35,954 nucleotides of DNA from a bacterium (GTDB lineage Bacteria > UBA9089 > JASEGY01). Numbering within the stretch: the stretch's first letter is position 1; the number at the start of each line of letters is the position of its first letter. Below are positions 9,492 through 35,901 of this stretch, piece by piece. The stretch covers positions 1 to 35,954 of the forward strand of contig JBFMHI010000015.1 of the NCBI GenBank assembly GCA_040753085.1. Reading direction: 5' to 3'. The notes below the pieces were generated by a model. It was not told where the DNA came from. It worked only from the letters and a program-made list of their open reading frames with translations, and searched no databases. The translations under genes were made by a program, and so were the position numbers.

Positions 9492-9661
9492 GGGATGGTT
9501 CACCTTACTGTGAAAGCTTGCGGCTAAATTAGAAACCCGTTTTTTCCGAAAAAACGGGTTTCTGATCTCGTGTAACCCGAGTAGGTTGCCCCGAATTATT
9601 GAGGAAGATAGGAAAGGACCCGCAAGGTTTCACAAGAAAAATGGAGGATTTGAACCGTCCC
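9492..9661 (+). repeat. MITE-like element upstream of the DUF5618-like gene (copy 1)
   Basis: 170 bp with imperfect terminal inverted repeats: GGGATGGTTCA at the left and TGAACCGTCCC at the right, extending to GTGAAAGCTTGCGG and the complement of CCGCAAGGTTTCAC. The centre (9531-9563) is a perfect hairpin of 15 bp arms around CCG, rich in A/T at its apex, which could pause or terminate transcription inside the nuo operon. Nearly identical to 10110-10277. Between nuoB and this element (9466-9491) lies a short remnant of the ATTGCGG heptamer family. Confidence 0.88.
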
Positions 9662-9680
9662 AAAGGTAACTATATTTACA

Positions 9681-10109: not shown

Positions 10110-10277
10110 GGGATGGTTCATCTTACTGTGAAAGCTTGCGGCTAAATTAGAAACCCGTTTTTCCGAAAAAACGGGTTTCTGATCTCGTGTAACCCGAGTA
10201 GGTTGCCCCGAATTATTGAGGAAGATACGAAGGACCCGCAAGGTTTCACAAGAAAAATGGAGGATTTGAACCGTCCC
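10110..10277 (+). repeat. MITE-like element downstream of the DUF5618-like gene (copy 2)
   Basis: 168 bp, same orientation as 9492-9661. Differences are a C/T in the left end (GGTTCA[C/T]CTTACTG), one fewer T in the hairpin arm (10149-10180) and small changes near GAAGATA[G/C]. The two copies make a direct repeat around the gene at 9681-10058. Confidence 0.88.
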
Positions 10278-10320
10278 GAAATTTCTAACTCGAAACTTGG
10301 TAGATAACAAGGTGGCAAAA

Positions 10321-10801: not shown

Positions 10802-10936
10802 GTAACCGTTCGTCATATGATGCTCGATGCTCGATGCTCGATACTCGATGCTCGATCCTCGATGCTCGATCCTCGATGCTCGATGCTCGATGCTGGTAAA
10901 GGATCCAGTATCCAGGATCGAGCATCCAGGATCGAG
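10802..10936 (+). repeat. Heptamer array (ATGCTCG family) abutting the nuoD start codon
   Basis: Starts with GTAACCGTTCG (10802-10812), then 11 exact 7 bp units at 10820-10896 (ATGCTCG, with variants ATACTCG and ATCCTCG, last unit ATGCTGG). An apex TAAAGGATCCAGTATCCAG follows, then inverted units (GATCGAG, CATCCAG) to 10936. The tail can fold back on the array. The tail supplies AGGA (10928-10931), which serves as the ribosome binding site of nuoD. The same layout, with a longer array, occurs at 35396-35860. Confidence 0.92.
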
Positions 10937-26058: not shown

Positions 26059-28170
26059 CTATCTAATGACGGGGTGACCCTGATCTCTCCTTCTTAACGC
26101 CCTTACCATAAGCACACTCATTATTATTACCGCCGCTATGATACCCCAACCTGTCATACTTGGGATCAGGGCTGGAGTGCTGTCGCAGACATCACCTGTT
26201 CCATCACCATCCGTGTCTTCCTGCCCTGGATTAGATACCAGTGGACAATTATCTACTCCATCCAACACCCCGTCGTTGTCATCATCTGTATCACAGGCAT
26301 CGCCTATGCCATCGGTATCTGTGTCAGTCTGACCGGGATTAGACACCAGTGGACAATTATCTGCCCCATCCAGGAGGCCGTCGTTGTCATCGTCCGTGTC
26401 GCAGGCGTCTCCTATGCCGTCGGTATCCGTGTCTGTCTGACCCGGATTGGGAGTAGAGGGGCAATTGTCAGCCGTGTCCGGGGCACCGTCACCATCGCTG
26501 TCATATTCGCAGGCATCGCCTATTCCATCACTATCCGTGTCAGTCTGACCAGGATTGGACACCAGTGGACAATTATCTACTCCATCCAATACCCCGTCGT
26601 TGTCATCGTCTGTATCACAGGCATCGCCTATCCCGTCGGTGTCCGTGTCTGTCTGACCCGGATTGGGAATAGAGGGGCAATTGTCAGCCGTGTCCGGGGC
26701 ACCGTCACCATCGCTGTCATATTCGCAGGCATCGCCTATCCCGTCGGTGTCCGTGTCTGTCTGACCCGGGTTGAAGACCAGCGGACAGTTATCTGCCCCG
26801 TCCAACACCCCGTCGTTGTCATCGTCCGTATCACAGGCATCACCTATCCCGTCGGTGTCCGTGTCTGTCTGAGCCGGGTTGAAGACCAGCGGACAATTAT
26901 CTGCCCCATCCAATACCCCGTCGTTGTCATCGTCCGTATCACAGACATCGCCTATCCCGTCGGTATCCGTATCTGTCTGACCCGGGTTGAAGACCAGCGG
27001 ACAATTATCTGCGCCATCTAACACGCCGTCGTTGTCATCGTCCGTATCACAGGCATCGCCTATCCCGTCGGTGTCCGTGTCTGTTTGACCCGGATTGGGA
27101 GTAGAGGGGCAATTATCGGCCGTATCCGGAATGCCGTCACCATCGGTATCCGTCACGCCTTTTTGTTCTTCCGAACCGGCCATCACGGCAAGATGGCCAC
27201 TATTTTCTATTAGACTATACTTGCGGACCTGAATATCGTCCCACTTGGTGCTTGTTCCATAGCCATTCAGGGCTATCCTCCCTGCCGACAAGGCAGAGTC
27301 GCCGATCTCTATCATCCATCCGGCCGGTTCCGAACCGCCTACCGGCCAATACCTTGCTTTCAACTGCGTCCCGACAAGGGCAAGTTTCATTCGGTAATAA
27401 GTTCCCAGAGAAAAAGTCGACCCATCCGGGGCAGATAACTGTGTCATCCCCCCATTCATTACATGCAATTCAAAACCCGGCCCCTCACCATTGTTGTCCA
27501 GATTATTATTAAGCCCTAACAAGTAATAATGAAGCGTATCTGTATACCGGCCCATAAATTCCAGGACAGGATATCCGCCGGTCATTACCCCGGTTGCCTC
27601 TAAAACATAATCCGTCCAGGCGGCATCCCCCGCATAAGTAATGGGTCTCCCTACAGTGCTCGTTTGGACATATTCACCACCAATGACACTCCATGATCCG
27701 AAAATGGGCGTCCATCCGTCAGCATTCCCCTCGTTGAAATCATCAAAAAACATATAAACCTGATTTTTACTGGCGGGCGGGCTACCTGCTCCTGGAAAAC
27801 CATAATAGATATAATAGCTGGTGTCAGAGCTGCTTCCTCCAATAACCACCTGGGTTTTAAACCAGACATCCGTGGCCGTCGTATTGGGGTTAATTAAATC
27901 CCTGTCCAATTCCTGATTAGAAGTCCCATTCCAGTAGACAAGGCGCAGATCATTTCCCGTGGCTAACATTTTACCGGCTGTAACTAAACTGGCTGTATTC
28001 AGACTAACCTTAAGCGAATAACCGGCCTCCAAATTAGAAGAACCATTATTGGTGATAGTTACATTTCGCCTGTAACTATAGTTGGCATTCCACCAGTCAG
28101 CCGCCTTAAGCCAGGTCGGGATCAAAAGGATGGCTAAGGTCAAATACACCAGGACACAGTTTCTTTTCAT
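26059..28170 (-). CDS. Secreted thrombospondin type 3 repeat protein with DUF2341 and IPTL-CTERM-like tail
   Basis: 703 residues. Signal peptide (1-23, hydrophobic [14 protein letters not shown], cut near LKA-AD). Residues about 25-125 look like DUF2341 ([28 protein letters not shown]), and about 140-330 like a concanavalin/LamG-type beta-sandwich ([13 protein letters not shown]). Residues 341-662 are nine units, 36 residues each, of the thrombospondin type 3 kind ([15 protein letters not shown] and relatives), which bind calcium through DxDxDG loops. The C-terminus IPSMTGWG followed by a membrane helix and RALRRR matches the IPTL-CTERM style signal processed by exosortase-like systems. AGGAGG sits 7 bases before the ATG. 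Probable cell-surface structural or adhesive role. No exosortase is in the window. Confidence 0.88.
26185..27150 (-). repeat. Nine 108 bp coding tandem units (thrombospondin type 3)
   Basis: The DNA coding residues 341-662 is a tandem array of 108 bp units. Units of the 'DTDDDNDG' kind alternate with 'EYDSDGDG' kind, and several are nearly identical at DNA level, which indicates recent duplication or gene conversion. Copy number is likely to vary between strains and to be error-prone in short-read assembly. Confidence 0.9.
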
Positions 28171-32511: not shown

Positions 32512-32515
32512 TTCT

Positions 32516-32599
32516 AAGTCAGAGGACACAGAAGACAGAGGACAGACCATTTCTGACTCCTGACCTCCGACCTCTGACTTCTGACCTCTGACTTCTGAG
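32516..32599. repeat. 12-unit heptamer hairpin (CTGACCT family) abutting the VanZ gene
   Basis: 84 bp in perfect 7 bp phase: five units of one sense (AAGTCAG, AGGACAC, AGAAGAC, AGAGGAC, AGACCAT) and seven of the inverse (TTCTGAC, TCCTGAC, CTCCGAC, CTCTGAC...). The halves pair as a stem. It ends two bases before the VanZ ATG and starts a few bases after the Asp23 stop. Confidence 0.88.
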
Positions 32600-32601
32600 A
32601 A

Positions 32602-33006
32602 ATGATAAGATATTGGCTTCCAGTTTGTTTATGGGCAGGATTCATTTTTTATCTTTCTTCTCTCTCCGAAACGCCGGTTCCCCCTCTTCTGGAGACACCT
32701 GGTTTGGATAAAGCCGCCCACCTAATAGAATACACCATTCTGGCCCTTCTCTTAGCCAGGGCATTAAAGAATTCTGAGTCTAAATGGCTATCTAACCAAT
32801 GGGTGGTGCTGACTATGGTGGGCACTATTCTCTACGGCGTAACTGATGAAATCCATCAATACTTTGTTCCCCTCCGCCAGACAGACCTCTATGACCTCCT
32901 CTTTGACAGCCTGGGGGCCCTGATCGGACAAAGAGGCTGGAGGCGGCTTTCACACTGGAGAGAGGGCCGTAACTGTTTAGCCAAATTGAGTACCGATCAC
33001 CGATGA
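32602..33006 (+). CDS. VanZ-like family membrane protein
   Basis: 134 residues with about four membrane helices. The family pattern is clear: LDKAAHLIEYTILALLLARAL, then GVTDEIHQYFVPLRQTDLYD with LLFDSLGALIG. VanZ-like proteins are widespread and mostly uncharacterised. Some affect teicoplanin tolerance. No vancomycin genes are here. The start lacks a Shine-Dalgarno sequence because the heptamer hairpin occupies that space. The last dozen residues (from GRNCLAKLSTDHR) are encoded by a boundary-word plus heptamer insertion (GTAACTGTTTAG at 32969, CACCGAT units), so the original C-terminus has been replaced. Confidence 0.88.
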   Translation: MIRYWLPVCLWAGFIFYLSSLSETPVPPLLETPGLDKAAHLIEYTILALLLARALKNSESKWLSNQWVVLTMVGTILYGVTDEIHQYFVPLRQTDLYDLLFDSLGALIGQRGWRRLSHWREGRNCLAKLSTDHR

Positions 33007-33011
33007 CCGAT
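32969..33011 (+). repeat. Boundary word and CACCGAT heptamers at the VanZ 3' end
   Basis: GTAACTGTTTAG (32969-32980) is one base from the boundary consensus and is followed by three heptamers TACCGAT, CACCGAT, GACCGAT (32991-33011). It spans the VanZ stop codon and lies 25 bases before miaA. Confidence 0.7.
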
Positions 33012-33036
33012 AACGAGATCTTTAAGTTTTCGCCCT

Positions 33037-34062
33037 ATGTGTTTTCCCCTTATTGTTATTACCGGACCAACCGCCGTCGGCAAGACAGATTTGTCCGTCA
33101 AATTAGCCCTCAAATTAGGGGCGGAGATCATCTCGGCCGATTCCAGGCAGGTCTATTTGGGGATGGATATTGGCACGGCTAAGCCTTCAGTCGAGGCAAG
33201 GCATCTTGTGCCGCATCATCTTATTGACGTGGTCAAACCGGATGAGGAATTTACCGTGGCCGATTTTAAAGCCATGGCTGAGGCCAGGATCGACCGGCTC
33301 CATTCCGGAATGCGGATGGCGGAAGGCGGCAGGGAAAATCCGAAATCCGCAATCTGCAATCCGAAATGGATAAAGCCCCCTCTCCTCGTAGGCGGGACTT
33401 TCCTTTATATCCGATCTATTATAGATGGCCTATTCCCAGGACCGTCGGCCTCTCCTGAAATCCGAAGGAGATTGACCCAAGAAACAGACCAGTTTGGTCC
33501 ACAATACCTTTCTGAAAAGCTTAAGGAAGTCGACCCCACCACCGCCGCTAAGTTAGACCCGGCCGACCTGAGGCGGATCACCAGGGCCCTTGAGGTCTAT
33601 TATCTTACTGGTCAGCCCATTTCTCACCTTCAGACCCAAAAAACCACCAAGCAGAACTATTCGGTGCTGATGATCGCTTTGCTCAGAGAAAGGGATGAAC
33701 TCTTTGCCCGCCTCCAGGTGAGGATAGAACAGATGATTCAAAAGGGGCTGGTAGAAGAGGTGCAGCGGCTATTAGATCAGGGTTTTGGGCCGGAACTTCG
33801 GTCTATGGAGGGGTTGGGATATCGGGAGATAATCGGATACCTGAAAGGAGAATACGGTCTCTCTGAGGCCAAGGCTATTATTTTAAAACGAACTAAGCGG
33901 TTGGCCAGATATCAATTGGGCTGGATAAGAAACGATAAAAGATACCACCTCTTCCACCCGGATCAGGAAGAGGAGATATTTAATCAGATCGAGCACTTTC
34001 TGGGGAGAGTGGAGTGTGGCCAGGTCTCTTCTCTCCATTCTCCACTCTCCACCTTATCTTAG
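33037..34062 (+). CDS. miaA: tRNA dimethylallyltransferase MiaA
   Basis: 341 residues. Adds a dimethylallyl group to A37 of tRNAs that read UNN codons. Visible: P-loop GPTAVGKTDLS (10-20), SADSRQVYLGMDIGTAKP, HHLIDVVKPDEEFTVADF, LLVGGTFLYIRSIIDGL, LRRITRALEVYYLTG, MEGLGYREIIGYL. Two oddities: about 20 extra residues (roughly 89-111) between the ADF helix and LLVGGT come from an in-frame heptamer insertion (33337-33364 and its left flank), and the last residues (GRVECGQVSSLHSPLSTLS) are read from another repeat, overlapping the convergent TPR gene by 9 bases. No clear ribosome binding site. Family length is nearer 300-320. Confidence 0.95.
   Translation: MCFPLIVITGPTAVGKTDLSVKLALKLGAEIISADSRQVYLGMDIGTAKPSVEARHLVPHHLIDVVKPDEEFTVADFKAMAEARIDRLHSGMRMAEGGRENPKSAICNPKWIKPPLLVGGTFLYIRSIIDGLFPGPSASPEIRRRLTQETDQFGPQYLSEKLKEVDPTTAAKLDPADLRRITRALEVYYLTGQPISHLQTQKTTKQNYSVLMIALLRERDELFARLQVRIEQMIQKGLVEEVQRLLDQGFGPELRSMEGLGYREIIGYLKGEYGLSEAKAIILKRTKRLARYQLGWIRNDKRYHLFHPDQEEEIFNQIEHFLGRVECGQVSSLHSPLSTLS
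33337..33364 (+). repeat. Heptamer insertion inside miaA (inverse ATTGCGG family)
   Basis: Four 7 bp units AATCCGA, AATCCGC, AATCTGC, AATCCGA, the complement of the family at 20891-20981. The left flank (GCGGATGGCGGAAGGCGG, about 33313-33330) is the opposite arm, so the whole insertion folds. The reading frame is kept. Confidence 0.8.
34002..34052. repeat. Short TCTCCAC-family hairpin at the miaA/TPR convergent ends
   Basis: GGGGAGAGTGGAGTGTGG (34002-34019) pairs with three heptamers TCTCCAT, TCTCCAC, TCTCCAC (34032-34052). It forms the 3' end of miaA and sits right at the stop of the opposing gene, so it might serve as a two-way transcription pause. Confidence 0.65.
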
Positions 34063-35394
34063 TGTCAAGAGGAGAAGAATAACCAGACCAAGACCTCCCA
34101 GAACGGCTGTCTTGTTTCCCCCTTTGGTCTCTGAGATTTCTTCTTTCGGTGAAATAGAAGGCGGTTCCTTTGGTGGCTTTTCTTCGACCTGGGGAGGAGG
34201 GATAACTTCAGCTTCGGCTATCTTGGGAGGAAGTGAGGTTTCTTCTTCTTGCTTTTCTTTGACCTGAGAAAGAGAGGTAACTTCAGTTATCTCAGGAGGA
34301 GAAGCCATCTTCGGCAGGTACCAATCTCCGGCAGGCTCAAGTCTCAGCCTATAAGTCTTGCCTTGTTTCAGAACGAGGCTGGGTAGAATACCCTTCATTC
34401 TTTCGGTGCAAGGGGGGAAATAGTAGTCCGGCCAAAGAGGCTGGGGGGGCTCTCGATTATCGGCGAATTTGAGGTCGAACTCCGGATGGAGAGGAATGGA
34501 ATCACCATTTTCATAAAGAACTAACTGGAAAGAAGATTGATCCGCTTTGGCGATCTCAATCGGACAGATATCAAAAAAACAGATATGTTTTCCCACCGGG
34601 AGGTGGAAGGATTTTTCGGTGAGAGCAGGACTGGCTGCTTCCCGGACGAATTCGATTTCAGGACCAGAAGGAAAAAAATAGAAAAGAAAATCCTCGGAGG
34701 AGGCGGGAGAATTTGATTCCTTGAAAAATTCTAATTTAGGGTAAAACCGGAAATAGTCCTTTAAAACTTCATCTATTTCAAAAGAAAAAGGCAGACTGCC
34801 TGTCCCTAAGCTCTCTTTTTCCCTTTCCAGACCATTTTGAGCCTGGGCGGCAATTTCTTTTATCTGTTCCGGCGGCTCCTCAATTAAACTAAGACGATCA
34901 AGCCCCAGGCGTTCTCCCTCAGCAAAAACCTGAAGGGCCTTTTCAAAAGAACCCATCTCGAGTAAGGTTTCTGCCTTGCGAAAGTAAGCATCAACCAGAT
35001 CAGGATTAAAATTTATCGCTTCCGAGAAGGCCATTTCAGCAAACTCCAGATTTTTAGCGGCTCTAATTCCCAGAATTTCATCCAGATATTGGAAATCTAA
35101 ATAAGATGAAGCGTTAAATTCATCCTTAAGAATGTAAAGAAAATAAGTTAAAGGAACCCTGTTCTGGTAAAATCTTTTCCTTAACTCATGAGCGGTAATC
35201 TTATTTAAAAGGAAGGTCTGAGTAAGGATGGCCTTTCCTTCTTTAATGTAGAACTCCCCTCTTCTTAAGGCTCTTTCTCCCAGGTTGTACCACTTGAGGG
35301 CATTTTTTTCATCTACTTGTTGCGCTGAGGAGAAGAAAGGGGTAGAGATCAGAAAGATTGAAGATAGTAAAAAGATGGAAGATAAACGTTTCAT
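34054..35394 (-). CDS. Exported TPR-containing protein with C-terminal membrane helix
   Basis: 446 residues from ATG 35394. Signal peptide (1-24, RLSSIFLLSSIFLISTPFF then SSAQQ). A TPR-like region at about 110-180 (AEMAFSEAINFNPDLVDAYFRKAETLLEMG and FEKALQVFAEGERLGLD). The middle is beta-rich and unrecognised (EFDLKFADNREPPQPLWPDY). A proline/glutamate-rich linker (about 375-425) precedes a final membrane helix AVLGGLGLVILLLLTLR. So a periplasmic domain is probably tethered at its C-terminus. The frame is open upstream through the whole heptamer array to 35844, but the signal peptide marks 35394 as the true start. No ribosome binding site other than what the array provides. Function unknown. 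Confidence 0.8.
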   Translation of the reverse strand: MKRLSSIFLLSSIFLISTPFFSSAQQVDEKNALKWYNLGERALRRGEFYIKEGKAILTQTFLLNKITAHELRKRFYQNRVPLTYFLYILKDEFNASSYLDFQYLDEILGIRAAKNLEFAEMAFSEAINFNPDLVDAYFRKAETLLEMGSFEKALQVFAEGERLGLDRLSLIEEPPEQIKEIAAQAQNGLEREKESLGTGSLPFSFEIDEVLKDYFRFYPKLEFFKESNSPASSEDFLFYFFPSGPEIEFVREAASPALTEKSFHLPVGKHICFFDICPIEIAKADQSSFQLVLYENGDSIPLHPEFDLKFADNREPPQPLWPDYYFPPCTERMKGILPSLVLKQGKTYRLRLEPAGDWYLPKMASPPEITEVTSLSQVKEKQEEETSLPPKIAEAEVIPPPQVEEKPPKEPPSISPKEEISETKGGNKTAVLGGLGLVILLLLTLR

Positions 35395-35395
35395 A

Positions 35396-35860
35396 ATGCT
35401 CGATGCTCGATTCTCGACACTGGATGCTCGATTCTCGACACTGGATGCTCGATACTCGATGCTGGATACTCGATGCTGGATACTCGATGCTCGATGTTGG
35501 ATGCTCGATGCTCGATGCTCGATGCTGGATGCTCGATGCTGGATGCTCGATGCTGGATGCTCGATGTTGGATGCTCGATGCTGGATGCTCGATGCTTGAT
35601 GCTCGATGCTGGATGCTCGATGTTGGATGCTCGATGCTCGATACTCGATGCTCGATGCTGGATGCTCGATGTTTGATACTCGATGCTGGATGCTCGATGT
35701 TGGATGCTCGATGCTCGATGTTGGATGCTCGATGCTCGATGTTGGATGCTCGATGCTCGATGTTGGATGCTCGCTGCTTGATACTCGATGCTGGATGCTC
35801 GATGCTGGTAAAGGATTTAGTGTCCAGTATCGAGCATCGAGCATCGAGCATCGAGCATCG
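35396..35860. repeat. 59-unit heptamer array (ATGCTCG family) with inverted tail
   Basis: Exactly 59 units of 7 bp (35396-35808), mixing ATGCTCG, ATGCTGG, ATGTTGG, ATACTCG, ATTCTCG and ACACTGG. Then comes the apex TAAAGGATTTAGTGTCCAG and five inverted units (TATCGAG, CATCGAG...) to 35860. The apex matches that of the nuoD array at 10897-10915. All six frames are open because every frame reads the same heptapeptide cycle. The array starts one base from the TPR start codon. Confidence 0.95.
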
Positions 35861-35901
35861 AAATTATATCACAACGTAAAGCCTCTTTCAAGAAAAATAT
35901 T

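Follow-up and report, generated by a model that had tools for sequence, protein, structure and literature searches.

A 20-residue in-frame insert in a bacterial MiaA is very probably a tolerated copy of a dispersed hairpin built of stop-free heptamers

The window analysed here, the whole 35,954-nt stretch of contig JBFMHI010000015.1 (assembly GCA_040753085.1), carries a miaA gene that an earlier note had singled out for about 20 extra residues before the motif LLVGGT, encoded by AATCCGC-type units and a pairing left arm. The features of the locus are as follows.

33037..34062, plus strand: miaA, tRNA dimethylallyltransferase, 341 aa (TIGR00174, E 1.5e-87; one match in the genome, G000)
33301..33370, plus strand: dispersed hairpin element, CATTCCGG...CCGAAATGGA, about 70 nt (copies aligned over positions 2-71 of the query 33300-33372)
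33301..33333, minus-strand reading: left arm, degenerate AATCCGN heptamers (sequence; RNA fold)
33307..33366, plus strand: in-frame insert, 60 nt, coding for GMRMAEGGRENPKSAICNPK (comparison with 55 homologues; best placement)
33336..33370, plus strand: right arm, AATCCGN heptamers (TRF)
34002..34053, plus strand: second palindrome, GGAGAGTGGAG...CTCCACTCTCC, from the C-terminal tail codons to just before the stop (fold and pLDDT)

The product matched the curated family model TIGR00174 over its full length (293.5 bits against a cut-off of 148.65, E 1.5e-87), and a single copy of the gene was found, with one match in the search of the genome. All 24 columns that are invariant across 24 homologues were intact, and the best PDB match of the predicted structure was E. 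coli MiaA with tRNA (3foz/2zm5; TM 0.82/0.91). The second palindrome (fold −35.5 kcal/mol, z −2.62) does not belong to the AATCCG family and encodes a C-terminal tail modelled at pLDDT 43 and 30; lying at the 3' end of the gene, it may have a second role as a transcription-end hairpin.

We compared this MiaA with 55 homologues from its own and other phyla: named genome contigs supplied 26, and whole genomes the other 29, of which at most 18 belong to the same phylum. Exactly 20 extra residues between the helix ending in RLHS and the strand LLVGGT were found in this protein only; in 5 of the 55 this was judged from two match pieces, whose separation is exactly 20 residues smaller than in the query. 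The same insert encoded by unrelated DNA, the pattern of an ancient normal loop, occurred in 0 of the 55. We place the insert at 33307-33366 as the best fit, no more than 3 nt from the 33310-33366 proposed earlier and uncertain by a few bases at its borders; in context it reads CAT TCC [GGA ATG CGG ATG GCG GAA GGC GGC AGG GAA AAT CCG AAA TCC GCA ATC TGC AAT CCG AAA] TGG ATA AAG CCC. The MiaA proteins of two other genomes of the phylum (G009 and G015) have in-frame inserts too, but ahead of LxSMEALGY, a different site. The G009 insert includes a palindrome, CACAAGCAAGATGCTTGTGC, found 55 and 32 times in two further species of its genus. MiaA has independently acquired such inserts elsewhere in the phylum.

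The DNA of the insert region is a hairpin of AATCCGN heptamers, with both the repeat units and the pairing left arm of the earlier description. The right arm consists of AATCCGA AATCCGC AATCTGC AATCCGA and the left arm is its degenerate reverse complement, AATGCGG ATGGCGG AAGGCGG, such that the RNA of the region is predicted to fold at −39.1 kcal/mol (z −2.95 vs shuffles). The element ends, (C)CATTtCGG and CCGAAATGG, pair with each other, and as the entire element is a hairpin the ends are not separable as terminal inverted repeats. None of the heptamers AATCCGC, AAATCCG and ATCCGCC yields a stop codon, whichever strand or frame is read. Selection of the unit sequences for lack of stops was considered and found no support (10 of 14 unit types were stop-free on both strands, compared to roughly half expected of random heptamers).

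Copies of the element were sought in this genome and in its genus mate (G001) using 33300-33372 as the query. Near full-length copies were recovered in the genus mate (contig C276, 85% over query positions 2-69; contig C675, 84% over 3-71), and copies in this genome aligned at 83% over 1-64 (contig C1) and 84% over 13-68 (contig C16). Long copies in both species had E values of 6e-16 to 7e-10, with near full-length relatives 78-85% identical. The alignment showed a loop, GGAAAATCCG, and a 3' end, CCGAAATGGA, that are common to copies at several unrelated sites, from which the extent of the element was set at about 33301-33370. The earlier view of a heptamer insertion therefore stands as to the presence of heptamers in the gene, while what was inserted is refined from a loose heptamer run to a whole dispersed hairpin with a loop and end of its own. 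The element was also found in the same frame in an open reading frame of the genus mate, directly upstream of a GT9 domain, where it reads DSGLQIAGCGVENSKSAIRNSKW compared to HSGMRMAEGGRENPKSAICNPKW in MiaA. Copies differ by 15-22% and their arrays vary in length, indicating that local slippage has also shaped them. At intergenic copies in the two genomes (L212, L221, L224) the element terminates with GAAATGAGGAGG or a similar sequence immediately ahead of a start codon, where its end may supply or adjoin the ribosome-binding site.

Heptamer repeats were prevalent well beyond this family. Within 419 kb of the genome we counted 76 arrays of period 7, compared to 1 in a Markov shuffle, and lags of 4-6, 8 and 10-13 gave 1-4 arrays each in the same sample. 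The commonest units were AGCATCG, AATCCGN, AAGGCTG and AATCGCG, and many arrays form hairpins with conserved loops, e.g., GATACTGGATCCTTTACCAGC in the AGCATCG family. The AATCCG motif had 481 loose sites in the genome vs. 0 for a reversed control. Strict triple AATCCG units numbered 103 in this genome and 381 in the sole other genome of the genus; elsewhere in the phylum two genera had a few and all other genomes had none, nor did any occur in 22 genomes from outside the phylum. Another palindrome, GGTACCCACGAAGTGGGTGC, was present in 86 copies in this genome, often joined to heptamers.

Other repeats lie elsewhere in the window. The gaps flanking a VanZ-like gene hold more heptamers, a GTCAGAG/CTCTGAC hairpin and an ACCGATN run (32515-32598 and 32993-33016). 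Very long GATGCTC / GAGCATC arrays with an inverted partner occupy 35396-35861 and 10819-10936; the former, which includes about 59 units (35396-35808), extends into the predicted start of the open reading frame 34054-35844 on the minus strand. Eight tandem 108-nt repeats (26183-27238) are situated within the minus-strand open reading frame 26059-28170, and two pairs of direct repeats were observed, 176-475 / 1789-2088 (98% over 300 nt) and 9492-9664 / 10110-10280 (90-98% in several pieces).

We consider it highly probable that the miaA insert is an in-frame copy of this dispersed hairpin of stop-free heptamers, tolerated and nearly neutral. At some point in the ancestry of this genome, a short dispersed hairpin of AATCCGN heptamers would have been copied into miaA, perhaps at the cost of a few native bases. 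Persistence of the insert would be due to a net length divisible by three, to heptamers that are stop-free in six frames and to a landing site in a loop, such that the presumably translated enzyme still folds. A border duplication, which the earlier note suggested looking for, was not found: no direct repeat of at least 3 nt was present at the 60-nt offset and none of at least 5 at offsets of 45-72. The genus mate had no MiaA match and hence offered no empty site for comparison, with synteny breaking after the VanZ-like gene, right before miaA. Y1 transposases (PF01797) had 0 matches in this genome and 1 in the genus mate, the genomes being 95-97% complete, and movement by a RAYT/Y1 transposase was rejected on the former count. 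Hairpin gene conversion keeping the arms alike was likewise rejected, as left arms were no more similar to their own right arms (0.87) than to the right arms of other loci (0.89). With no target duplication, no empty miaA site in a near relative and no Y1 transposase found, we infer the insertion event from the dispersal of the element.

The route of copying could also have been microhomology or template switching, in which a replication fork that stalls at a hairpin switches template and places a copy of a heptamer hairpin where the sequence resembles the hairpin's ends, and the element is not a transposable unit. This reading is compatible with a copied, tolerated hairpin, as a refinement of the route, and is consistent with the failure to find a Y1 transposase or a border duplication; moreover, CAT TCC, the native codons on the left border, are similar to the element end (C)CATTTCGG. 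That similarity spans only about 6 nt, however, and could be due to chance, while the existence of several element families with constant loops is what would be expected of mobile units. We therefore regard template switching as unlikely, if still a serious contender.

Considerably less probable is local slippage, by which an AATCC-like seed present in miaA by chance would have grown into heptamers on the spot, with the likeness elsewhere reflecting convergence on the genome-wide heptamer bias. Arrays of period 7 abound in this genome, and array lengths at shared sites differ between the two species, both points in favour of slippage. Yet the likeness between copies extends through about 65-70 nt, taking in the loop GGAAAATCCG, which is not heptameric, and CCGAAATGGA at the terminus, with both arms in the same order, and slippage makes no inverted arm. 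Local repeat expansion alone is thus insufficient, because long copies share the loop and 3' end at unrelated sites.

The MiaA-type element, or its palindromic and heptamer cousins, was also found inside other genes. Our survey covered about 777 kb of this genome and located in-gene copies partly through open reading frames, so that disrupted genes would be under-counted. In this genome, in-frame elements of the AATCCG or cousin families occurred at three sites in a fused MFS/spermidine-synthase-like protein, in the editing domain of LeuRS, and in a GT4 glycosyltransferase, a VipB-like sheath protein, and polysaccharide-deacetylase-like and O-antigen-ligase-like proteins, while the genus mate had them in MurB, an NAD(P)H-hydrate epimerase domain and a CobD-like aminotransferase. 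The LeuRS, spermidine-synthase-like and GT4 proteins have in-frame copies in both species. The earlier proposal that these repeats enter genes is borne out by copies in many unrelated enzymes in two species of the genus, with the frame open in every case examined. Arrays at the LeuRS N-terminus and in PtsI-like and YidC genes were considered as interior inserts and were not counted, as they lie before the likely true start.

Between orthologues of the two species, insert sites were mostly shared and the repeat text was different, as in LeuRS, whose orthologues are 85% identical. Where measured, length differences between the species were multiples of 3 (72 nt in MurB, 57 nt in LeuRS), and an 18-residue insert in the spermidine-synthase-like gene was missing from the genus mate, a 54-nt difference at one site. 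The GT4 element has the same orientation in both species according to DNA alignment. Compared genomes outside the genus were without these inserts, and some carry inserts of their own at other LeuRS sites. LeuRS of another genus (G009; L130) has a long insert in which the peptide (VGADL)CVCPDK recurs, likely another repeat-coded segment. On one contig of the genus mate (C387; L223 348-2723), a single open frame spans a polysaccharide deacetylase with DUF3473 and a GT4 glycosyltransferase, with stop-free AATCCG heptamers linking the two. This GT4 is a separate open reading frame in the present genome; a repeat-made gene fusion is a possible explanation.

Structure prediction supports the suggestion of the earlier note that the insert occupies a tolerated loop, as the AlphaFold2 model places it in a low-confidence coil within an otherwise well-folded MiaA. 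pLDDT was about 50 for residues 91-110 (53 and 51) and about 90 on either side, with a coil at residues 96-114 between helix 74-95 and strand 115-119. In folds of this type, the link into a central strand lies on the far side from the nucleotide-binding P-loop. Most likely the insert does nothing for MiaA. Retention for an added function, whether binding by the loop or tuning of expression by an mRNA hairpin, would fit the stable hairpin in the mRNA and the intergenic copies that often lie just upstream of start codons, but inserts of this kind recur in unrelated enzymes, and the two species fill one and the same site with different repeat text, which is what filler under no constraint would show. 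We regard this reading as very improbable. A dying gene or an assembly artefact is hardly credible: the draft genome is in 250 contigs, but all 341 codons form an open frame, the 24 invariant columns are intact, the MiaA model is confident and equivalent inserts occur in a separate genome of the genus. The tolerated copy would be one of many such nearly neutral insertions in the genus of a selfish or passively spreading repeat.

We compared the element with known repeat systems. REP sequences are short, dispersed, palindromic and often beside genes, like the element, but they are moved by RAYT (Y1) transposases, for which this genome had no PF01797 match, and lie mostly outside genes. The element also does not show the target-site duplication of a MITE. 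Rickettsia palindromic elements (RPEs; Ogata et al. 2000) are about 150 bp long, with one conserved peptide per family, and sit in frame in many genes, as described in PMC10969869. On that description, the likeness is that of short palindromes of one lineage lying in frame in unrelated conserved genes, whose products seem to have kept their function, whereas the element here is about 70 nt instead of about 150 bp, has tandem heptamer arms, and varies in length and text by site. Judged by their described size and lineage, it falls outside the RPE families. Coding palindromes, perfect and up to 284 bp, have been described in mitochondrial genes of Nematomorpha (PMC6649704); these are also inverted repeats in protein-coding genes that are read through, but they are mitochondrial and perfect, and the abstract of that study describes no heptamer units.

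In the use of seven-base units with many copies per genome and several unit sequences, the element resembles cyanobacterial STRRs and the heptamers of Xanthomonas and Nostoc. The likeness to cyanobacterial-type STRRs, tandem 7-nt units in many dispersed arrays, is one of build. The GGGAATC / GGGGA(C/T)T heptamers of Xanthomonas and Nostoc are reported to be under-represented in coding regions and to form G-quadruplexes (PMC4692102), whereas here copies lie inside genes and form hairpins. By analogy, the element appears to act like an RPE yet to be built from heptamers like those of cyanobacterial STRRs; our search of openly accessible papers found no direct precedent for heptamers inserted in genes.

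More speculatively, and with rather less than even confidence, we suggest that the element represents a class of mobile hairpin made readable in all frames and both orientations by its heptamer arms. As 7 equals 1 modulo 3 and the unit is stop-free on both strands, a copy with a net length divisible by three would be translatable anywhere, and the element would colonise genes as well as gaps, leaving one genus with dozens of such peptides in its housekeeping proteins. The finding adds an unrelated phylum, represented here solely by draft genomes, and a different DNA build to the known range of protein-coding selfish repeats, whose best-known examples are those of Rickettsia. Automated gene models in such genomes include repeat-coded segments and fusions and call for caution. 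Two species with the same insert sites and different repeat text constitute a natural series on the entry, turnover and usefulness of new peptide segments.
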